NCBI GenBank assembly: GCA_031273925.1
Contig: JAISQW010000002.1
Coordinates: 1 to 61,430, forward strand
Reading direction: 5' to 3'
Source: Endomicrobium sp.
Lineage (GTDB): Bacteria > Elusimicrobiota > Endomicrobiia > Endomicrobiales > Endomicrobiaceae
DNA: 61,430 bases
In this document: one piece after another, positions 7,712 through 60,732 of the stretch
Layout: each line of letters starts with the position of its first letter
Numbering within the stretch: the first letter of the stretch is position 1
Translations under genes and position numbers: made by a program
Notes under the pieces: model-generated
Told to the model about the DNA's origin: nothing
Database searches by the model: none
What the model saw: the letters and a program-made list of their open reading frames with translations, nothing else

Positions 7712-8974
7712 ATGTTAAAAATATATTTGATTATTTATAATCTTGTTATTATAATTTTCTCTCCTATAATTGTATTTTTCATTATTTTTTTTGCAAGCGG
7801 CAAAAAAAAAGAATTTTTGTATAAATTTTTAGAGCGATTCGGTATTTATAATTTAAAATACAAAAATTCATCAAAAAAGACATTATGGATACATTGTGCA
7901 TCAATTGGCGAAGTTCGTGCAGTTGAATCAATTTTAGATAGTTTTAATGATTATTACATTATTTTAACATTAGTTACAAAAAGTGCTAGAGAATATGCAG
8001 AAAAAAAATTACATAAAGCAAATTTTATTGCTTTTCTACCTATAGATTTTTATCCAATTATGCGTAAAGCTTTTAATACCTTTAATCCTATAATGCTTAT
8101 ACTAGTTGAAACTGAATTTTGGCCATCGATGCTTTATATTGCATCTCATAAAAATATAAAAATTATTACAATTAATGGAAGAATATCTAAAAAATCGTTC
8201 AAAATTTACAAAAAATTAAGTTTTTTTTGGATAAGATTTATTAGATTGATTAATGTAATTATTGCAAAAAGTGAAGATGATGCTAATAGATTTAGATTCT
8301 TAACCAATAAAAATAATGAAATAGTTATCTCTGGTAATATAAAGTACAATAAAAATATTACTTTAAATATAAAACGATGCGATTATTCATTAAGAAAAAA
8401 TGATTTTGTTTTCGTGGCTGGAAGTACAAGAAAAGGTGAAGATGAAATTATAATAGATATATATAATGAAATGTCTAAAAAATTTGATTTTATTAAATTT
8501 TTTCTTGCTCCGAGACATTTGTCAAGAATAAGTATTATAAGTAAAGTACTTAAACGTAAAAAAATTAAATTTTCTTTTTTTTCATCAAAAATTTTTGATA
8601 ACAATTTTATTTTGGTTGATATTTTTGGAGAATTACAAAATATATATTTTGTTTCAGACGTATGTTATATTGGAGGTTCTATGGTTGAAAAAGGAGGACA
8701 AAATCCTATAGAGCCTGCAGCATATGGAAAACCTGTTTTATTTGGTAAAAATATGTACAATTTTAAAGTAGAAGCTGAAAATCTTATAAAAAATGGTGGT
8801 GGATTAATTGTTAAAAATTCAAGAGATTTATTTTGTAAAATAAGTGAATTTATATTAAATAAAAGATTAGTATTAGATATTGGACAAAATGCTTTAAAAA
8901 CAGTGAAATCTCAAAAAGATTTTGTTGATTTTACGATAAAAAAGATAAAGGAAAATTTAAAAAATGTACAATAA
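7712..8974 (+). CDS. waaA: 3-deoxy-D-manno-octulosonic acid (Kdo) transferase
   Basis: A 420-residue GT30 glycosyltransferase that adds Kdo from CMP-Kdo to the lipid A precursor at the inner membrane. It has an N-terminal membrane anchor (residues 3-29), the acceptor-side motif HCASIGEVRAVES with the catalytic glutamate E67, VETEFWPSM, the GSTRKGEDE nucleotide-site region, APRHLSR and the C-terminal PIEPAAYGKPVLFG motif. The 3' end overlaps the next gene by 11 bp, so the two are translationally coupled. Whether it transfers one or two Kdo residues cannot be told from sequence. Confidence 0.95.
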   Translation: MLKIYLIIYNLVIIIFSPIIVFFIIFFASGKKKEFLYKFLERFGIYNLKYKNSSKKTLWIHCASIGEVRAVESILDSFNDYYIILTLVTKSAREYAEKKLHKANFIAFLPIDFYPIMRKAFNTFNPIMLILVETEFWPSMLYIASHKNIKIITINGRISKKSFKIYKKLSFFWIRFIRLINVIIAKSEDDANRFRFLTNKNNEIVISGNIKYNKNITLNIKRCDYSLRKNDFVFVAGSTRKGEDEIIIDIYNEMSKKFDFIKFFLAPRHLSRISIISKVLKRKKIKFSFFSSKIFDNNFILVDIFGELQNIYFVSDVCYIGGSMVEKGGQNPIEPAAYGKPVLFGKNMYNFKVEAENLIKNGGGLIVKNSRDLFCKISEFILNKRLVLDIGQNALKTVKSQKDFVDFTIKKIKENLKNVQ

Positions 8975-10637
8975 TAAATATTTTACTATGATAATTAGTT
9001 TGATATGCTATATTATAAATAAAACTCTAAGAACTGTATCATTGAATGATACAATTCGTTATACAAAACCATCAATTTATTCCTTTTGGCATGGAAATTT
9101 GTTACCTATGATGATGTTTAATCAAAATAATAATATAGTTGTTATGGTTAGTTTATCCGATGATGGTGAGATTTTGTCAAAGGTGTTAGAAGATTTTGGA
9201 TACTTAATCGTTAGAGGTTCATCAAATAAAAGTGGTAGTAAAGCTTTAATAAAATTTATGGAGTATGCTCGTAATGGATATAATCTTGCAATTGCTGCAG
9301 ATGGTCCTAGAGGACCTTATCATAAACTAAAAGTTGGTGTTATTTATGTTGCTAAGAAAACAAAAATACCATTGATTCCTATAAGTTGTTCTTCAAGTAA
9401 AAAAATTACACTTACTAAAACATGGGATAATACTGTAATTCCATTACCTTTTTCAAAACTAGTACAGATTTATGGTAAGCCTATATACATAAACAATCAT
9501 GACAATATTGAAGAAAAAATAGATATTGTGGAGAAACAGTTAAATCAATTATTTGAATTTACAAATAAATATTATTGGAGTAAGGACTTATTAAAATATT
9601 TAGAATATCATCCTTCACCCAAAATTTTAATAATTCAGCCAGGAAGAATAGGCGATATAATATTTTCATTGCCTATCCTTTCTAAAATCAAAAAAAAATA
9701 TTCCAACGCAAGTTTGAGTTGGCTTGTAGATAGTCAATATTTTGAAATTTTAGAAGGTAATATATGGTTAGATAACATTTTTTTATGGGATAGAAAACAA
9801 ATTTCTTATAGACATTACAAAAATTTATATAGACAGTTAAGAAATAATAAATTTGATTTAAGTATAGATCTACAGTGTCTTGCTAAATCAGCATTGTTTG
9901 TTAAGCTTGCGGGCTCAAAATTTAAAATAGCGTCTTCCGCAGTAAACGGTATGAAAGAATTTTCATGGTTATTTTCAAAAGAAATCAAAGCTCCTAAAAC
10001 ATATCATTGTATCAACTGTAATTTAAAAGTTGCAAAATATTTAGGATGCGAAGATAAAATTGATTTTGCAAATTCAATAATGATATCAGAAACTAGTTTT
10101 AAAAGTATGGAAAGTAAACTTTTACAAAAGAAAATCAATTTTCAAAAGATAATAGGTATTCATGCAGGTGCTACTTGGGCATCAAAAAGATGGAGTATTT
10201 ATAAATTTGCAATTTTAGCAAAAAAATTAAAAGTAGAATTAAATGCAGATGTTGTATTTATTGGTATCAAAAGTGACAATATTAATAAAGAAGTAATAAA
10301 GAATGTTGGAGTTGATATGATTGACAAATTTTCTTTAAAGGAACTGTGTGCTTTTTTAAAAATATGTAAAGTTTTTATTGGTAATGAATCTGGGCCTATA
10401 CATATTGCAACAGCTTTTAATACACATGCAGTAGCCATACTTGGACCCACAAATTCAAATCGTACAGGTCCATACAAAGGAAACACTAAAGTTCTACAGC
10501 ACCATATTGATTGTCAACCTTGTAGAAATAAAAACTGTAAAAAATTAACATGCATGGAAAATATTAGTGTTGCAGAGGTTTTTGAGGAAGTTAAATTAAA
10601 GTTTACTAATTTTGAAAATAGGATACAAGGAGAATAA
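8964..10637 (+). CDS. Fusion: DUF374 lysophospholipid-acyltransferase-like domain + GT9 heptosyltransferase
   Basis: A 557-residue protein with two recognisable parts in one uninterrupted frame. Residues about 15-205 match DUF374 (FWHGNLLPM, SLSDDGEI, DFGYLIVRGSSNKSG, AADGPRGP), a family related to lipid acyltransferases and often found next to waaA. Residues about 219-552 match family 9 glycosyltransferases of the WaaC/WaaF heptosyltransferase type (QPGRIGDIIFSLPIL, HAGATWASKRWS, GNESGPIHIATA, GPTNSNRTGPY, and a Cys-rich tail with CQPC). The context (waaA upstream) points to lipid A core assembly. I infer that the acyl and sugar transfer steps are physically coupled. The sugar donor and acyl donor are unknown. 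pfp follows after 6 bp. Confidence 0.85.
   Translation: MYNNKYFTMIISLICYIINKTLRTVSLNDTIRYTKPSIYSFWHGNLLPMMMFNQNNNIVVMVSLSDDGEILSKVLEDFGYLIVRGSSNKSGSKALIKFMEYARNGYNLAIAADGPRGPYHKLKVGVIYVAKKTKIPLIPISCSSSKKITLTKTWDNTVIPLPFSKLVQIYGKPIYINNHDNIEEKIDIVEKQLNQLFEFTNKYYWSKDLLKYLEYHPSPKILIIQPGRIGDIIFSLPILSKIKKKYSNASLSWLVDSQYFEILEGNIWLDNIFLWDRKQISYRHYKNLYRQLRNNKFDLSIDLQCLAKSALFVKLAGSKFKIASSAVNGMKEFSWLFSKEIKAPKTYHCINCNLKVAKYLGCEDKIDFANSIMISETSFKSMESKLLQKKINFQKIIGIHAGATWASKRWSIYKFAILAKKLKVELNADVVFIGIKSDNINKEVIKNVGVDMIDKFSLKELCAFLKICKVFIGNESGPIHIATAFNTHAVAILGPTNSNRTGPYKGNTKVLQHHIDCQPCRNKNCKKLTCMENISVAEVFEEVKLKFTNFENRIQGE
9035..9053. repeat. Perfect inverted repeat in the DUF374-GT9 gene
   Basis: TGTATCATT (9035-9043), one G, and AATGATACA (9045-9053). 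The repeat is within coding sequence about 70 bp from the start codon, so a hairpin could affect early translation. Confidence 0.85.
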
Positions 10638-19047: not shown

Positions 19048-20037
19048 ATGTCAAGGATTCTCATTACAGGAGCAAACGGTTTTATAGGTAGTCATATTGT
19101 AGAAACACTTATTGCAATGAAGAATCATCATATTATATGTGTTGTAAGAAAAACGTCAAATTTAAAATGGATAAAAAAATTATCAGTAGAATACAGATAT
19201 GGTGATTTAGTCGATAAAAATTTTTTAAATACAATAGTCGAAAACGTTGATATTATTATTCATTGTGCTGGTATTATACGTGCAGTTAATAAAAATGAAT
19301 ATTTTAAAATAAATAGTAAAGTTACAAAAAATTTATGTACAGCAATTTTAAAAAAAAACCACAATTTAAAAAAAATGATTTTTATTTCATCACAAGCAAG
19401 TATGGGACCGACAATGATGACGAGTAATATAAAAAAGATGTATGATACTTGTAATCCTATTTCTAGTTATGGATTGAGCAAGTTTATTGCAGAATCAGAA
19501 ATAAAAGAAACACTTTACAATAAAGTTCCTTATACAATTCTTAGACCAGCTGCGGTATATGGACCAAGAGATAAAGATATTTTTATACTTTTTAATTTAA
19601 TACATAAACATTTAAAACCAATTACTATAACAAAAAGATTATTACAACTTGTCTATGTAAAAGATGTTGCAAATTCTGTTGCTGCTTGTCTAGAAAATAA
19701 AAAAACAGATAATAACGTTTATTATCTTGCGAATTCTGAGATATATACTTGGGAAGATATAGGTAATGTCATAGCATCATCCGTTGGAATTAAAACAATT
19801 CCATTGCCAATTCCAAATTTTATTTTAAAATTTGTTGGATTAGCATATGAATTGTTTTCTTATATAAGTAAAAAACCTGTAATATTAAATAGTCAAAAAA
19901 TTGATGAACTTCTTCAAAAATATTGGATAGCGGATACAGATCCTGCTAAAAATGATTTAAATGTTAAGTTTACTTCTCTTGAAGTTGCATCTAAAATAAC
20001 ATACAATTGGTATTTATTGAATGGTTTTTTTAGATAA
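19048..20037 (+). CDS. Extended SDR / NAD-dependent epimerase-type reductase, candidate 3-ketosphinganine (ceramide) reductase
   Basis: A 329-residue Rossmann protein with ITGANGFIGSH (nucleotide binding, 6-16), FISSQASMGP (112-121) and the catalytic Y141-X3-K145 (YGLSK). The specific pattern (VRKTSNLKW, PAAVYGPRD, TWEDIG) resembles the epimerase-like reductases found beside serine palmitoyltransferase in bacteria, for which CerR of Caulobacter is the studied example. An alternative is an SDR-type threonine dehydrogenase feeding a KBL enzyme, but the N-terminus does not look like that family. It is followed by the SPT-like gene after 51 bp. The precise substrate is inferred from context. Confidence 0.6.
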   Translation: MSRILITGANGFIGSHIVETLIAMKNHHIICVVRKTSNLKWIKKLSVEYRYGDLVDKNFLNTIVENVDIIIHCAGIIRAVNKNEYFKINSKVTKNLCTAILKKNHNLKKMIFISSQASMGPTMMTSNIKKMYDTCNPISSYGLSKFIAESEIKETLYNKVPYTILRPAAVYGPRDKDIFILFNLIHKHLKPITITKRLLQLVYVKDVANSVAACLENKKTDNNVYYLANSEIYTWEDIGNVIASSVGIKTIPLPIPNFILKFVGLAYELFSYISKKPVILNSQKIDELLQKYWIADTDPAKNDLNVKFTSLEVASKITYNWYLLNGFFR

Positions 20038-20088
20038 CTATTTTGATAACTGATAAATATAAAAAAATTAAAATAGGAGAATGTGAAA

Positions 20089-21273
20089 ATGGAAATTGAT
20101 GTTTTTAAGAAGTGTTTTAATTTTCATATTGTTGATAAGCTAAAAAAAGCCGGTTTTTATCCGTATTTTCATAAAGTAGAATCTCGACAAGGACCTGAGA
20201 TTATTATTAATGGCGCAAAAAAAATAGTAGTTTGTTCTAATAATTATTTAGGGCTTGCAAATCATCCTAAGGTAGTAGAAGCTTCGATATTAGCTATAAA
20301 AAAATATGGAACATCTTGTACAGGATCTAGACTTCTTAATGGAACAAACGATTTACATGAAAAAGTCGAAAAAAAATTTGCAAAATTTGTTAATAAAGAG
20401 GATGCTATACTTTTTACTACTGGACATCATTCTAATTTAGGAGCACTTTCAAGTTTAGTCGGTAAAAATGAGGTCTTTATTACAGATAAATTAGATCATG
20501 CTTCAATTATAGACGGATGTCGTTTATCTTTTGGAGAAATGGTAAGATTTAAACACAATAATATGGAAGATCTTGAAAGACAACTTTTAAAACATAAAAA
20601 TAAAGCTATGATGATTGTAGTTGATGGTATTTTTAGTATGGGAGGAGATATTGCAAATCTTCCCGAGATATCAAATCTTGCAAAACAATATGGAGCAAGA
20701 GTTTTTATAGATGAAGCTCACTCATTTGGGGTAATAGGAGAAAATGGTAAAGGAATTGGAGAATATTTTAATATGGGCGAAAATATTGATGTACTAATGG
20801 CTACTGCTTCTAAATCTTTGGCATCAATAGGTGGTTTTATTGCAAGTAAATCTAAAGTTATTAATTATATCAAACATAATGCTAGAACTATGATTTTTAC
20901 TGCAAGTCTTCCACCAGGATGTGTTGGTGCTATAGATGCTGCTTTAGATTTACTTATTTCAGAACCTAATAGGAGAATTGTTTTAATTAGCAATGCAAAT
21001 AAAATAAGAAAAGCCTTTAAATCAATGGGTTATAATACGAATTCTTCACATTCACCAATTATTCCATTAGTTGTAGGTAGTGATTTGATAGCATTTAAAA
21101 TGTGGAAAATGCTTTTTGATGAAGGAATATTTGCTTCACCAGTAGTTACACCTGCAGTTCCTGAAGGACAATCAATAATAAGGACAAGTTATATGGCCAC
21201 TCATTCAGATTCACAATTAAATTTTGTTCTTGAAAAATTCAAAAAAGTAGGTAAGAAATTTGGAATAATATAA
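20089..21273 (+). CDS. Alpha-oxoamine synthase, serine palmitoyltransferase-like
   Basis: A 394-residue PLP enzyme that condenses an amino acid with an acyl-CoA or acyl-ACP. K242 (SKSLASIGGF) is the PLP lysine, DEAHSFG (208-214) holds the cofactor Asp and His, and H137 (LDHASIIDG) should stack on PLP. Several stretches (GFYPYF, RFKHNNMEDL, HNARTMIF, FASPVVTPAVPEG, YMATH) match what I recall of bacterial serine palmitoyltransferase better than 2-amino-3-ketobutyrate ligase or BioF. I start at ATG 20089, with AGGAG at 20075-20079. The neighbours, a reductase and a GNAT acyltransferase, support a role in sphingoid-base synthesis. KBL is the main alternative. Confidence 0.65.
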   Translation: MEIDVFKKCFNFHIVDKLKKAGFYPYFHKVESRQGPEIIINGAKKIVVCSNNYLGLANHPKVVEASILAIKKYGTSCTGSRLLNGTNDLHEKVEKKFAKFVNKEDAILFTTGHHSNLGALSSLVGKNEVFITDKLDHASIIDGCRLSFGEMVRFKHNNMEDLERQLLKHKNKAMMIVVDGIFSMGGDIANLPEISNLAKQYGARVFIDEAHSFGVIGENGKGIGEYFNMGENIDVLMATASKSLASIGGFIASKSKVINYIKHNARTMIFTASLPPGCVGAIDAALDLLISEPNRRIVLISNANKIRKAFKSMGYNTNSSHSPIIPLVVGSDLIAFKMWKMLFDEGIFASPVVTPAVPEGQSIIRTSYMATHSDSQLNFVLEKFKKVGKKFGII

Positions 21274-21300
21274 TTATTTATTAAAAACTTTTGGAGTTTT

Positions 21301-22428
21301 ATGTTAAAAATGAGAATTGTAAAAATATTTAATAATAAACAGTTTATGCAGTTTGTACGTTTACCATGGAAAATCTATTCAGGAGTTAAACAATGGGTAC
21401 CACCTTTAATTTCTGATGTTATATATACATTATCAGAAAATAAAAATCCTTTTTGGATGCATGCAAAACGACAACTTTTTTTGGCTTATGATAAAAATAA
21501 TGATGTTGTTGGTAGAATTGTAGCTATAATAGATTATAGTTACATATCGTTTCATAATGACAAATGTGGTTTTTTTGGTTTTTATGAATGCATCAATGAT
21601 TTAGAAGTTGCTATGAATCTTTTTATATCTGCTGAAAATTGGTTGAAAGATCAGAATATATATAAAATGATTGGACCTATGAATCCATCAATAAATTATG
21701 AATGTGGATTTTTGTATGATGGTTTTAATATTAACCCTAGTTTCATGATGCCTTATACACATAAATATTATTTACAACTTGTTGAAAAATCTGGTTTAAA
21801 GAAAATAAAGGAATTATATGCTTATAATATGAATATTATGAAAAATTTAGAATTGGAAGAAAGACTAAAAAAAATTGTTATTATGACGAAGAAAAGAATT
21901 CCAACATTGAGAATTAGAAACATTCAAAAAAAAACATATAAAGAAGATTTAAATACTATAATATCAATATACAATTGTGCCTGGGAAGAAAATTGGGGTT
22001 TTATACCGTATAGTATGGATGAATTTTTATCAATTGCAACTAGGTTAAAAACGATTATCGATCCTGAAATGATTTTGATTGCTACTATTGATGATTTACC
22101 TATCGGAATAATTATTTCCTTACCTGATTATAATCAAGTTTTGAAAAGAATTAATGGAAAATTATTTCCAATAGGTCTTTTGAAAATTTTATATTATAGA
22201 ACAAAAATAGATAGTTTAAGACTTGTAATTATGGGTATTATAAAAGGATATAGACATAAAGGAATAGCAGCTGTTATGTGTGAAAAAGGATTAGAAAATG
22301 CCATTAGATTAGGATATAAACATTGCGAATTTTCATGGATACTTGATAATAATATAATGACGCAACATATTGCAGAAATAATGAATGCTAAGATTTATAA
22401 AAAATATGCAATATATAGCAATAAATAA
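21301..22428 (+). CDS. GNAT-fold acyltransferase, candidate bacterial ceramide synthase
   Basis: A 375-residue protein of a conserved family with an N-terminal FVRLPWKIY...QWVPPL region, FWMHAKRQLFLAYD, GFFGFYEC, GPMNPSINYECGFL and MMPYTHKYY, followed by a C-terminal GNAT-like domain (IMGIIKGYRHKGIAAVMCEK, the acyl-donor loop). This architecture is that of the GNAT-type proteins linked to N-acylation of sphingoid bases in bacteria. It is 27 bp after the SPT-like gene and preceded by GGAG. I infer that it acylates the product of that enzyme. The acyl chain and donor are unknown. No membrane helix is evident. Confidence 0.55.
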   Translation: MLKMRIVKIFNNKQFMQFVRLPWKIYSGVKQWVPPLISDVIYTLSENKNPFWMHAKRQLFLAYDKNNDVVGRIVAIIDYSYISFHNDKCGFFGFYECINDLEVAMNLFISAENWLKDQNIYKMIGPMNPSINYECGFLYDGFNINPSFMMPYTHKYYLQLVEKSGLKKIKELYAYNMNIMKNLELEERLKKIVIMTKKRIPTLRIRNIQKKTYKEDLNTIISIYNCAWEENWGFIPYSMDEFLSIATRLKTIIDPEMILIATIDDLPIGIIISLPDYNQVLKRINGKLFPIGLLKILYYRTKIDSLRLVIMGIIKGYRHKGIAAVMCEKGLENAIRLGYKHCEFSWILDNNIMTQHIAEIMNAKIYKKYAIYSNK

Positions 22429-22589
22429 TAGTTATTAAAGATGTTTCATTAGGTATTTAAAATTATAATTTTGTTTTATCTTTTTTTAACTATAATTTTT
22501 ATATTGAATATGTATTATATATTCAAAAACATTTTTTATATAACTGTAAAGCACATAAAACTCATTTTTTTATAAAAGAAATAGTTGAA

Positions 22590-23501
22590 ATGTCTAAAAG
22601 AACAAACCTTCAAAACTATATCGAATACTTTATTGTTAAAATTGTTATTTTTTTTTTCAGATTCTTTTCTATCAACATCTCAATAAAATTCAGCCAATGT
22701 ATAGCGGTTTTCATATATTATTTTGTTCCTATTAGAAAAAAACATATTTTAAAAATGCTTACAATATCTTTTCCTGAAAAATCAACTACAGAAATAAGAT
22801 TTATAGCAAAAAATGTATATAAAAATTTTCTAAGAACAATAGTTGAAGTTATATATTTTCCTATAATGTCATATAGAGAAATAAAAAAGCTATTAATTTG
22901 TACAAATGCGCATTTGATAAAAGATTTTTATACAGCAGGAAAGGGAATAGTTTTAATGTCAGCACATTTAGGAAATTGGGAACTTGCGGCATTAATATTT
23001 TCGAAAATATATCCTATATCTGTAATTGTTGCAAATCAAGCAAATCAATTTGTGAATAAGATAATAAATGATATTCGTACTCAAAAAGATTATAAAACTA
23101 TCAATAAAGATAATATGAACATTAAAACGATTTTAAAATGTTTAAAAAAAAATGAAATACTTGCAATTTTATCTGATCAAGATGCTGGACAAAATGGTGT
23201 TTTTGTACCATTCTTTGGACGTTTAGCGTCAACTCCAAAAGGTGCAGCGTATTTTGCAATTACAGCAAAATGTCCTATAATTATTGCATTAAGTACAAGA
23301 CAAAAAAATGGAACTATTAAAGTTGAATTTACAGAAGTTCCAATGCCAAATACTGGTAACAAAGAAACTGATATTAAAATAATTAACAGCTTTTACTCTA
23401 AAAAGCTCGAAGAGGCTGTACGTAAAAATCCTGAACAGTGGTTTTGGTTCCACCGTAAATGGAATACACGTCCAACAATTTCTAAAAAATTGACAAGTTA
23501 A
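22590..23501 (+). CDS. lpxL: Lipid A late acyltransferase, LpxL/HtrB family
   Basis: A 303-residue inner-membrane acyltransferase that transfers a secondary acyl chain to Kdo2-lipid IVA. An N-terminal hydrophobic segment (IVIFFFRFFSINISIKF) is followed by the catalytic H-X4-E motif in SAHLGNWEL, then LSDQDAGQNGVFVPFFGR and the C-terminal NPEQWFWFHRKW signature. The gene follows the candidate ceramide genes after 161 bp. The paralogue group (LpxL, LpxM, LpxP) cannot be decided from sequence alone. A tRNA gene starts 35 bp after its stop. Confidence 0.92.
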   Translation: MSKRTNLQNYIEYFIVKIVIFFFRFFSINISIKFSQCIAVFIYYFVPIRKKHILKMLTISFPEKSTTEIRFIAKNVYKNFLRTIVEVIYFPIMSYREIKKLLICTNAHLIKDFYTAGKGIVLMSAHLGNWELAALIFSKIYPISVIVANQANQFVNKIINDIRTQKDYKTINKDNMNIKTILKCLKKNEILAILSDQDAGQNGVFVPFFGRLASTPKGAAYFAITAKCPIIIALSTRQKNGTIKVEFTEVPMPNTGNKETDIKIINSFYSKKLEEAVRKNPEQWFWFHRKWNTRPTISKKLTS

Positions 23502-24380: not shown

Positions 24381-24398
24381 TTTTATTTTAAGTTATTT

Positions 24399-24472
24399 GC
24401 CCGGTTAGCTCAGTTGGTTAGAGTACTTTCTTGACATGAAAGAGGTCAGAAGTTCAAGTCTTCTACCGGGCA
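24399..24472 (+). tRNA. tRNA-Val, anticodon GAC
   Basis: A 74-nt cloverleaf: acceptor GCCCGGT/ACCGGGC, D arm GCTC/GAGT, anticodon stem CTTTC/GAAAG with loop TTGACAT, T arm AGAAG-TTCAAGT-CTTCT, A73. It lies 18 bp after tRNA-Cys and 23 bp before the decarboxylase gene. CCA is not encoded. Confidence 0.96.
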
Positions 24473-24495
24473 ATTCTAATAATAATTTATACATA

Positions 24496-25971
24496 ATGAA
24501 AAAAAAATTGTGTTTGAGTCAATTTAAAACTCCGTTATTTGATACTCTTTTAGCTCATGCTAAAAGAGACGTTGTTTCTTTTCATTGTCCAGGTCATAAA
24601 AATGGTAGAAGTATTGATAAAGTTTTAAAAGATTATACTGGTGATGGAGTTTATAAGTTTGATGTAACTGTTTTTGATGAAGTTGATTCATTACATGATC
24701 CAATTGGACCTATAAGACGAGCACAAGAACTTATGGCACAGGCTTATGGTGTAAAATATTCTTTTTTTTTAGTGAATGGTACCTCAGTTGGAAATATAGC
24801 TATGTTTCTTGCAGCATGTGATTCTGGTGATTCAATAATAGTGTCAAGAAATTCACATAAATCTGTTATATCAGGAATAATTCTTTCAGGTGTTTGGCCA
24901 ATTTGGATTCAACCAAAGATTGATCAAAATTTAGATTTAATTTTTAATACAACTTACGAACAAATTAAAGATGCATTAGATAAATATCCAGAAGCAAAAG
25001 GTGTATTTATTACAAGTCCAACATATAATGGAGTTGCCACTGGATTAAATAAAATTGTCAATTTATGTCATAAAAGAAATAAAATAGTGTTGGTTGATGA
25101 AGCACATGGAGCACATTTGCATTTTAATGAGCAACTACCAGAATCTGCAGTAGAGACTGATGCTGATTTATGTGTACAATCAACACATAAGATTTTATCA
25201 GCTATATCACAAGGATCAGTATTGCATTTTAACTCAAAACTCATTGAGTTTAATAGAGTTAAAAAAGTAGTTTCAATGCTTCAAACTACAAGCCCAAGTT
25301 ATTTAACGCTTGCTACTCTTGATTTAGCAAGAAGACAGGTGTTTTTATATGGTAGAGAAAATTTTAATAAAATTATAAAAATTGCAGAATATGGACGTTC
25401 ATATATAAATAATAATATACAGACAATGAAATGTTTTACGCGCAAAGAAGTTCAAAAATTAGGTTTTGACTTAGATGTTACAAAGTTAACTATAAATGTT
25501 ACAAAAACAGGTCTTTCTGGTTATGAAATAGAAAAAATTTTGGCAAAAAAGTACAATGTCCAGCTTGACTATGCAGATTTGTTCAATTTGGTTGCAATTA
25601 TGGGTGAAGGATCTAATAAATCAGATGTTGAAATTTTGGTAAAGGCTCTTGAAAGTATTAGCAGAAAATATCATGGTGAACAGAAAAATTGGATACTTAA
25701 AATACCATCACTTGCCACTGAAATGGTTATGATGCCAAGGGAAGTATTTCTTTCAAATAAAACTAAAAGTATTAGTTTAAAAAAAGCTGTAGGACATGTT
25801 GCTGCACAGACACTTACACCTTATCCTCCTGGTATCCCAATTGTTATTCCAGGAGAAAGAATCACACAAGAAATACGTGATTATCTTATGGATATGTCTG
25901 CAAAGGATATAAGAATAAGTGGTCAAGAAACTGAGATGTTAAAAACAGTAAAAGTTTTTACAAGTCAGTAG
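24496..25971 (+). CDS. speA: Orn/Lys/Arg decarboxylase (biosynthetic arginine decarboxylase type)
   Basis: A 491-residue fold-I PLP decarboxylase of the compact Bacillus SpeA-like type. FHCPGHKNG (29-37), VDSLHDPIGPI, FLVNGTSVGN, the cofactor DEAHGAH (201-207), the PLP lysine in STHK (K232) and the C-terminal PYPPGIPIVIPGE are all present. Products would be agmatine, cadaverine or putrescine. Arginine is my preferred substrate by family, but lysine or ornithine cannot be excluded. ATG 24496 is used because frames starting earlier run into tRNA-Val. A 10-bp perfect inverted repeat lies at 24545-24568. dksA-like follows after 9 bp. Confidence 0.85.
   Translation: MKKKLCLSQFKTPLFDTLLAHAKRDVVSFHCPGHKNGRSIDKVLKDYTGDGVYKFDVTVFDEVDSLHDPIGPIRRAQELMAQAYGVKYSFFLVNGTSVGNIAMFLAACDSGDSIIVSRNSHKSVISGIILSGVWPIWIQPKIDQNLDLIFNTTYEQIKDALDKYPEAKGVFITSPTYNGVATGLNKIVNLCHKRNKIVLVDEAHGAHLHFNEQLPESAVETDADLCVQSTHKILSAISQGSVLHFNSKLIEFNRVKKVVSMLQTTSPSYLTLATLDLARRQVFLYGRENFNKIIKIAEYGRSYINNNIQTMKCFTRKEVQKLGFDLDVTKLTINVTKTGLSGYEIEKILAKKYNVQLDYADLFNLVAIMGEGSNKSDVEILVKALESISRKYHGEQKNWILKIPSLATEMVMMPREVFLSNKTKSISLKKAVGHVAAQTLTPYPPGIPIVIPGERITQEIRDYLMDMSAKDIRISGQETEMLKTVKVFTSQ
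24545..24568. repeat. Perfect inverted repeat inside the decarboxylase gene
   Basis: CTCTTTTAGC (24545-24554), spacer TCAT, and GCTAAAAGAG (24559-24568). It is in coding sequence about 50 bp from the start codon. Confidence 0.9.
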
Positions 25972-58336: not shown

Positions 58337-59365
58337 ATGAGACTTACAACTTTAGAGCTTGCGAATATTGTTTCAGGTGAGCTTATTGGTGATAAAAATC
58401 TTGTTTTAACTGGTGTTAATGATCTTTTCTATGCAAAAAGCAACGAAATTTCTTTTTTAGAAAATTTAAAGTATTTTTCTGATGTTTTAAAGACAAATGC
58501 TGGTGTTATTTTTGTAGAAGTTGATTTAGATATTTCAAAATTTAAAAATAAAAATATAATAAAAGTAAAAAATCCTAAATATGCTTATAGTATTGTCTTA
58601 TCTATTATTGAAAAAGAAAGATTAAATTTAATTAATAATAGTAATATTATCATACATCCATCTGCTTCTATATCGCCAACTGTAAAAATAGGAAATAATG
58701 TATATATAGGTCAAAATGTTGTTGTTGAATTGAATTCTAGTATTGATGATAACACAAGAATTTTACCAAATGTTTATATAGGCAATAATGTAAAAATAGG
58801 TAAAAATTGTTGCATATACCCTAATGTTGTTATAAAAGAAAATACAATTATTGGTGACAGGGTAGTTATACATTCTGGTGTTGTAATTGGTAGTGATGGT
58901 TTTGGTTTTATAAATATAAATAAAAAAACGCACAAAATTCCACAAATAGGTAATGTGGAAATAGCTAATGATGTTGAAATAGGTTCAAATACTACAATTG
59001 ATAAAGCTACCGTAAATAGTACAAAAATAGGTGAAGGTACAAAAATAGACAATTTAGTGCAAATAGCCCATAATGTTCATATTGGTAAAAATTGTTTGAT
59101 AGTATCTCAAGTAGGAATATCTGGATCTACTCGTTTAGGTGATAATGTAATTGTTGGTGGTCAAACTGGAATAGTTGGACATTTAAAAATAGGTAATAAT
59201 GTAACTATATCAGGGCAATCTGGTATATCAAAAGATATCAAAGATAAAGAGAAAATTGGTGGTAATCCTATGTCGTCTCTTAGTAAAAGTATAAAAATAA
59301 GGGCATTAATAAGAAAGTTACCTGAAATGTATCAAATTTTAAAAAAATTAAAAAAATACTTATGA
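58337..59365 (+). CDS. lpxD: UDP-3-O-(3-hydroxyacyl)glucosamine N-acyltransferase
   Basis: A 342-residue lipid A enzyme. The N-terminal LpxD domain ([30 protein letters not shown]) is followed by many hexapeptide repeats ([25 protein letters not shown]) and the catalytic [20 protein letters not shown] with its histidine. GSDGFGF is also typical. It adds the amide-linked acyl chain from acyl-ACP. Its stop overlaps the lpxC-fabZ start by 4 bp (ATGA). Confidence 0.96.
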
Positions 59366-60732
59366 AAAAACAGATTACTATTTTAAAAGAAAATTCGATA
59401 GAGGGAACCGGTTTACATACAGGTAATAAAAGTAGATTGATTTTTAAACCAGCTCCGTATGCAGGATATGGCATTAAATTTATAAGAACAGATTTGAAAA
59501 GTAGACCAGAAATAGAAGCAATTTGTTTTAATGCAGTATCAGAATTAGCCATAAGAGGTACTGTTATTGAAAAATTTGGAGTTCGTATTTATACGATTGA
59601 ACATGTAATGTCCGCATGTTTTGGTCTTGGAATTGATAATTTAATCATAGAAATAAATAATAATGAACTTCCTATTTTAGATGGTAGTGCAAAAATTTTT
59701 ACTGAAACTCTTATAAAGAGTGGAATAAAAGAATTTAATATTTTAAAAGAATATTATATACTTCCCAATTCTGTGAATTTTAAACATGGTAAAACTAAGA
59801 TATCAGCATATCCTTCTGACCATCTTGAAATAGAATGTAGTATAGAATTTGGTCATCCGTTTTTAAAGTTTCAACAATTATCTATAAAGAATTTTGATAA
59901 AGATAATTATATAAATACTCTTGCTTCTGCAAGAACATTTTGTTTCGATTATGAAATAGAAAATCTTCAAAAAAAAGGATTAGCTTTAGGTGGTACAATT
60001 AATAATGCAATAATTATAGGAGTAAAAGGAATATTAAATAGCGATCCATTACGCTATAAAGATGAATTTGTAAGACATAAAATTTTGGATTTGATTGGGG
60101 ATTTGTATTTGGCTGGTAAATTTATAAAGGCTAAAATAGTTGCAAATAGACCTGGTCATAAAAATAATATAGAATTTGTCAAAAAATTTTTGAAAACAGC
60201 TATCGTTAAAAAAAATGAAATTTCAATTAAAACAATAAATAATAATAGAAAAATACAATTAGTTGAAACAGAAAAAATATTAAACTCTGAAGAAATTCTT
60301 AAATATGTACCTCATAGATATCCATTTTTAATGATAGATAAGATAAAAATAAATATTACCACACCTACAAAGGCTATAGGGTACAAGTGTATTAGTGGAA
60401 ATGAATATTTTTTTCAAGGTCATTTCCCAGGTATACCTATTATGCCTGGTGTTTTGATTATTGAAGCAATGGCACAAACTTCATGTGTTATGTTTCTTTC
60501 AAGACCAGAAATGAGAGGTAGACTCGCATATTTTATATCTATAAACAACGCGAAATTTCGTAGATTAGTAAAACCAGGAGATGTTCTTGAATTACATGTG
60601 GAAATAGTAAAGGATAGTATAACACGTGGTAAAATGAAAGGGAAAGCTTATGTTGATAACAAATTGACTGCTGAGGCTGAATTTACATTTATTATTGTAA
60701 AAAAACAAAAAGATAGTGACAATAATATATAA
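59362..60732 (+). CDS. Bifunctional LpxC deacetylase / FabZ dehydratase fusion
   Basis: A 456-residue fusion. Residues 1 to about 300 are LpxC, the zinc deacetylase that commits UDP-acyl-GlcNAc to lipid [25 protein letters not shown] (zinc His), PILDGSA and [14 protein letters not shown] (zinc His and Asp). Residues about 310-456 are FabZ, the 3-hydroxyacyl-ACP dehydratase: [14 protein letters not shown] and the catalytic [20 protein letters not shown]. The same fusion is known in Bacteroidetes and related groups and in Elusimicrobia. It couples use of hydroxyacyl-ACP for lipid A with fatty acid elongation. Confidence 0.96.

Follow-up and report, generated by a model that had tools for sequence, protein, structure and literature searches.

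A predicted three-gene ceramide cassette in the reduced genome of an Endomicrobium symbiont lineage

We analyzed a stretch of 61,430 nucleotides, referred to here as the window, from Endomicrobium sp. (assembly GCA_031273925.1, contig JAISQW010000002.1), in which three adjacent genes, judged from sequence, very probably form an operon-like bacterial cassette making (dihydro)ceramide. The window is one contig of a 535 kb assembly that is about 80% complete, and its genus, Endomicrobiellum, is among the symbionts of termite-gut flagellates. The three intact open reading frames (ORFs) occupy positions 19048-22428 of the plus strand and encode, in this order, an extended short-chain dehydrogenase/reductase (SDR), an alpha-oxoamine synthase and a tandem-GNAT acyltransferase. 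A sequence-only reading of the window had proposed these adjacent forward genes (19048-20037, 20083-21273 and 21301-22428, all on the plus strand) as a complete ceramide cassette. All three assignments survived the profile searches and trees run for the proteins, and the proposal is well supported by sequence. The genes are separated by gaps of 45 bp (reductase to synthase) and 27 bp (synthase to acyltransferase), with putative ribosome-binding sites ahead of the synthase start (AGGAGA) and the acyltransferase start (TGGAG). The G+C content of the cassette (26.6%) is near that of the whole window (25.9%) and thus gives no sign of recent import.

Identity of the three enzymes

The synthase gene (20083..21273, plus strand, GTG start) encodes a protein of 396 amino acids that was likened to serine palmitoyltransferase (SPT) on the basis of short motifs. 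All of these motifs (GFYPYF, RFKHNNMEDL, HNARTMIF, FASPVVTPAVPEG and YMATH) are present in the middle protein of the cassette. Alignment shows that the catalytic residues are kept, including His139, which lies over pyridoxal 5'-phosphate (PLP), Asp210, His213, the PLP-binding Lys244 (codon at 20812..20814, plus strand, located by alignment to Protein Data Bank (PDB) entries 3a2b and 8guh) and Arg367. The SKS and TPAVP motifs are of the SPT type, whereas Kbl is without SKS and PA-P motifs. The top NCBIfam model was SerpalmtaseCFB with 494 bits, compared to 382 for Kbl and 375 for BioF, and the top PDB match was the SPT of Sphingobacterium with 377 bits, compared to 269 bits for the next non-SPT enzyme.

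In an IQ-TREE phylogeny of 45 sequences, including the cassette synthases of Elusimicrobiota, the synthase falls in a clade (99/94) that holds the SPTs of Sphingobacterium multivorum, Sphingomonas, Bacteroides, Parabacteroides and E. coli. Kbl lies outside this clade at 100/96, and BioF and HemA are also excluded. Pairwise scores are less distinct, since the score against E. coli Kbl (259 bits, 34% identity over 385 amino acids) is close to that against E. coli BL21 Spt (275 bits, 38% identity). One could therefore regard the protein as a 2-amino-3-ketobutyrate ligase or BioF, with the SDR and the GNAT as unrelated neighbors. However, trees in which the Elusimicrobiota cassette synthases are constrained to group with Kbl are worse by 43.5 log-likelihood units (p = 0.003 in the approximately unbiased (AU) test), and trees joining them to BioF are worse by 100.7 units (AU p = 9e-5). 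Given these rejections, the motifs that are missing from Kbl and a synteny kept across several phyla, this identity is hardly credible. The motifs, database matches, tree and AU tests agree in supporting an SPT, with predicted activity on serine and a long acyl thioester. The ratio of nonsynonymous to synonymous substitution rates (dN/dS) for SPT between the window and genome G021 is 0.064, and the gene is strongly constrained in the lineage of the window.

An additional alpha-oxoamine synthase that does not belong to the SPT clade occurs in larger genomes of the genus (G014:C15:10224-11327, G021:C19:18054-19139, G057:C1:803788-804894 and others). The same search found none in the roughly 80% complete assembly of the window.

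The acyltransferase gene (21301..22428, plus strand, ATG start) encodes a protein of 375 amino acids for which a Pfam search returned no family above cut-off. It is homologous over its full length to YghO of E. coli BL21(DE3) (32% identity, 382 columns, 209 bits, E=5e-69) and is 33% identical to a Sphingomonas protein encoded near spt. Its AlphaFold2 model (predicted local distance difference test (pLDDT) score 89.6) is a tandem GNAT, the top PDB matches of which are also tandem GNATs (E about 1e-13), and a GNAT coenzyme A/pantetheine loop, R318-H-K-G-I-A (R318xxG321xA), lies at 22252-22269. In the acyltransferase tree the window protein sits among acyltransferases that are adjacent to SPT. 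YghO (ECD_02850) is the counterpart of Caulobacter CC_1154 (aca), which is needed for dihydroceramide synthesis, and the other BL21 genes have been named ECD_02852 (epi) and ECD_02854 (spt), with SPT activity assayed for ECD_02854 (PMC9386255). The reference acyltransferase and reductase sequences used here came from Sphingomonas and E. coli BL21, standing in for Caulobacter bCerS and CerR. Homology and modeled fold support the assignment of the third protein as a full-length tandem GNAT of the YghO/bCerS type and a candidate bacterial ceramide synthase, in agreement with the activity first proposed for it.

A second, distant YghO-like acyltransferase (25-28% identity) was found in some Elusimicrobiota (L065, L228-L233), where it groups with a Bacteroides finegoldii protein. 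Genome G027 has only this distant type, plus an SPT on another contig.

The reductase gene (19048..20037, plus strand, ATG start) encodes an extended SDR of 329 amino acids (Pfam Epimerase, 116 bits). The nucleotide-binding motif TGANGFIG (residues 7-14), Ser114, and Tyr141 and Lys145 of the YxxxK motif are intact. There is no N-terminal extension ahead of this Rossmann motif and no apparent signal peptide. Alignment shows that Tyr141, Lys145 and the C-terminal Trp293 are invariant in cassette SDRs, including those of Sphingomonas and E. coli, while Trp293 is absent from RfaD and paralogs. The AlphaFold2 model (pLDDT 92) has an extended-SDR fold, and a fold search matched extended SDRs generally; NDUFA9-type chains scored 4e-11 and weaker, with sugar epimerases equal or better. 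In the tree, the protein forms one clade (97/95) with SPT-cassette SDRs of Sphingomonas, E. coli, Rubrobacter, Streptomyces and Aureispira, while RfaD, GalE and Elusimicrobiota paralogs fall outside. Identity to BL21 Epi is 27% (E=2e-34). The synthase does not group with Kbl nor the reductase with threonine dehydrogenases, the arrangement named by the sequence-only reading as the one that would speak against it. We consider the reductase a candidate ceramide or 3-ketosphinganine reductase of the CerR type, as that reading had suggested; this assignment is less certain than the other two.

Conservation of the cassette and loss of the synthase in sister symbionts

The SDR-SPT-GNAT order was found on one strand in nearly all members of the genus, order and class examined, including G063, which is the cultured free-living Endomicrobium proavitum with a published chromosome (PMC4505116). 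Because the same order recurs in most relatives, the three-gene arrangement is not due to chance. Among 150 Elusimicrobiota genomes, where presence was defined as a match of at least 45% identity and G118 was left out for its weak match, the GNAT was present in 130 and SPT in 127. Both were found in 126 genomes, GNAT only in 4, SPT only in 1 and neither in 19 (Fisher p = 3e-19, a value that treats genomes as independent and ignores kinship). SPT was also encoded beside the GNAT at 72 of 80 GTDB loci found by the GNAT alone, including loci in metagenome-assembled genomes (MAGs) of Nitrospirae, Deltaproteobacteria, Caldiserica and KSB1.

The full SDR-SPT-GNAT order was seen as well in MAGs of Nitrospirae and Deltaproteobacteria/Desulfuromonadales (L185, L188, L193, L198, L186, L189). 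This common order is possibly a sign of cassette transfer.

A small genome (0.54 Mb) raises the question of whether the cassette is decaying and no longer functional. In G139 (L112:5758-8100), from the same genus, all three genes are eroded by frameshifts and stops, and several small or fragmented genomes are without cassette genes. In the window, however, the three genes are intact, every catalytic residue is kept and dN/dS values are 0.06-0.19; the complete cassette is likewise found in the small genomes G001, G117 and G130. A decayed, non-functional cassette in the window is therefore very unlikely.

A different pattern, outside the window and the most surprising of the results, was found in two sister genomes (94/93), G057 (L110:7716-10112) and G041 (L111:4898-7698 / L147), the latter being Ca. 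Endomicrobiellum agilis TA26, isolated from Trichonympha agilis (PMC8809381). Kinship to G041 suggests that the host of G057 is also a Trichonympha. Both genomes retain an SPT pseudogene, a remnant of 0.24 kb in G057 and 0.70 kb in G041 with stops in all frames, between an intact SDR and an intact GNAT. Codon-by-codon mapping identified the remnant clearly in G041 (404, compared to 341 for shuffled sequence) and barely in G057 (136, compared to a shuffled maximum of 135), where the short remnant was recognized from its position and from local matches (E about 1e-6). No other SPT-like gene was found in either genome, only a distant alpha-oxoamine synthase of 34-35% identity. SPT codons roughly 22-175 are missing from both, which is likely due to a single deletion in their common ancestor. 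Between G057 and G041, dN/dS is 0.15 for the SDR and 0.17 for the GNAT, at dS of about 0.75. These values are similar to those between SPT-keeping genomes, so the SDR and GNAT seem to be kept in the absence of SPT.

The most natural reading of this loss, as the pattern suggests, is scavenging of sphingoid bases from the host. The SDR and GNAT might serve salvage as well, or do so in some symbionts only, N-acylating and, if needed, reducing bases from the protist host, so that SPT becomes dispensable. We regard such salvage as a possible but rather doubtful role. The eroded SPT beside two constrained genes in G057 and Ca. Endomicrobiellum agilis speaks for it; yet the pattern was seen in just one pair of sister genomes, of which G057 has a short remnant, and G139 lost all three genes. 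Salvaged bases are usually already reduced, which would leave CerR unexplained, and the window itself has an intact SPT under strong constraint. It is also possible that the SDR and GNAT have a second function or that the loss of SPT is too recent to show.

Predicted pathway and comparison with known systems

We infer substrates, step order, product and location as follows. SPT would join serine and a fatty acyl thioester to form a 3-keto sphingoid base, the bCerS-type tandem GNAT would acylate the amine of this base with a second chain, and reduction of its 3-keto group by the CerR-type SDR would yield the (dihydro)ceramide of the cell envelope. Acylation before reduction has been argued for Caulobacter and is one possibility here. 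Acyl-ACP (ACP, acyl carrier protein) taken directly from fatty acid synthesis is the probable acyl donor, because the available part of the genome keeps one FabF-type synthase and one ACP, and a search for AMP-binding (acyl-CoA synthetase-type) genes found none there but detected the family in 12 of 14 controls; this is a weak argument given the incomplete genome.

Several points weigh against a ceramide pathway of this kind. At 493.7 bits the synthase falls short of the curated cut-off of 640 bits for NF047600, which puts it outside the narrow CFB equivalog, and it also scores under the NCBIfam cut-offs for Kbl and BioF; it belongs to the wider SPT clade and not to this equivalog. Beyond its nearest clade, identity between the reductase and its cassette counterparts in other phyla is only 23-29%, and the specificity of an SDR is not easily predicted. 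Two relatives keep the reductase and acyltransferase without SPT, which makes a further or different role possible. Neither headgroup nor export genes were identified, an absence that is weak evidence in a genome about 80% complete. Finally, ceramides in any Endomicrobia are a prediction from genes.

Another amino lipid could be made by the same chemistry, such as a 1-deoxysphingolipid from alanine, a sulfonolipid (capnine) from cysteate, or another N-acylated, reduced 3-keto amine. The amino-acid choice of alpha-oxoamine synthases is set by few residues, the NCBIfam cut-off for SPT was missed, and a cysteate-C-fatty acyltransferase of the Alistipes type is among the PDB matches of the synthase. 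However, this match (238 bits) is far below that of SPT (377 bits), and the clade containing the window synthase holds characterized serine enzymes. We therefore consider another product improbable and (dihydro)ceramide the favored prediction.

Ceramide genes of Caulobacter crescentus and E. coli BL21(DE3) (spt; cerR/epi; bcerS/aca/yghO; acpR; aasR) have been described (PMC9386255, PMC11087976, PMC11324152), and bacterial ceramide genes of this type are already established in Caulobacter. The window shares with BL21(DE3) homologs of Spt (38%), YghO (32%) and Epi (27%), each over most of its length. Unlike these systems, it lacks a dedicated ACP or acyl-ACP synthetase next to the cassette, its SPT is nearer the Bacteroidota type, and its SPT and acyltransferase genes are part of one run, in contrast to cerS, which has been reported always in an operon separate from other ceramide genes (PMC11324152). 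The closest solved relatives, the SPTs of Sphingobacterium multivorum and Bacteroides (PDB 3a2b, 8guh), have the same catalytic residues. In the Bacteroidales records examined, unlike in the window, SPT is not beside the acyltransferase, while in Aureispira the two are adjacent. In the available text of a Black Sea metagenome study (PMC11334938), the three genes are described as not adjacent in sphingolipid-producing Bacteroidota, and sequence data are reported to place clusters of Spt-like, bCerS and CerR genes in about 40 phyla. The same three-gene logic, predicted from sequence in uncultured bacteria, is shared with the window. The main text of that study does not name Elusimicrobiota or treat intracellular symbionts; figures or supplements may already count Elusimicrobiota.

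For Endomicrobia, we found no paper on such gene clusters. The sequence-only reading knew of no sphingolipids described in this class, and our literature search on Endomicrobia or Elusimicrobia and sphingolipids likewise returned only unrelated papers. Sphingolipids are not mentioned in the available text of the main comparative genome study (Mies and Brune 2024, PMC11257099) or of the single-cell study (PMC8809381).

Neighboring genes and biological significance

The cassette adjoins ribBA upstream and an lpxL-type lipid A acyltransferase gene downstream (22590..23501, plus strand; Pfam Lip_A_acyltrans, 173 bits), which lies outside the cassette and just after it, as had been noted. In a larger relative, smc (L042:8838-12335), which is missing from window positions 22429-22589, separates the cassette from lpxL, and the proximity of lpxL is therefore probably incidental. 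The suggestion that a full set of lipid A genes is present holds in part. In addition to lpxL, the lipid A/lipopolysaccharide genes of the window comprise waaA (7712-8974), a heptosyltransferase-type gene (8964-10637), lpxD (58337-59365) and lpxC-fabZ (59362-60732). The set is only partly visible, and lpxA, lpxB and lpxK were not searched for. Further downstream, the ORF called at 24436-25971 (lysine/arginine-decarboxylase-like) starts inside a tRNA-Val gene (24398-24473), and the coding sequence must therefore begin at a later position.

Interest in the cassette is raised by its intracellular setting, the cultured relative and the pattern of SPT loss. Ceramides are lipids typical of eukaryotes, and here the cassette genes are kept in the shrunken genome of a lineage of termite-protist symbionts. 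We suggest, tentatively, that sphingolipid metabolism may be split between symbiont and host: Endomicrobia may have inherited a full ceramide pathway that most symbionts keep, while Trichonympha symbionts could build ceramides from host sphingoid bases via the retained GNAT and SDR, which would amount to a bacterial salvage pathway. Whether bacteria have such a pathway is not clear (PMC11324152), and the symbionts that lost only SPT offer a natural test of sphingoid-base salvage. The cassette predicts ceramides across a bacterial class that includes the free-living Endomicrobium proavitum in culture as well as many intracellular members, in which lipid chemistry could be traced through the move into the eukaryotic cell.

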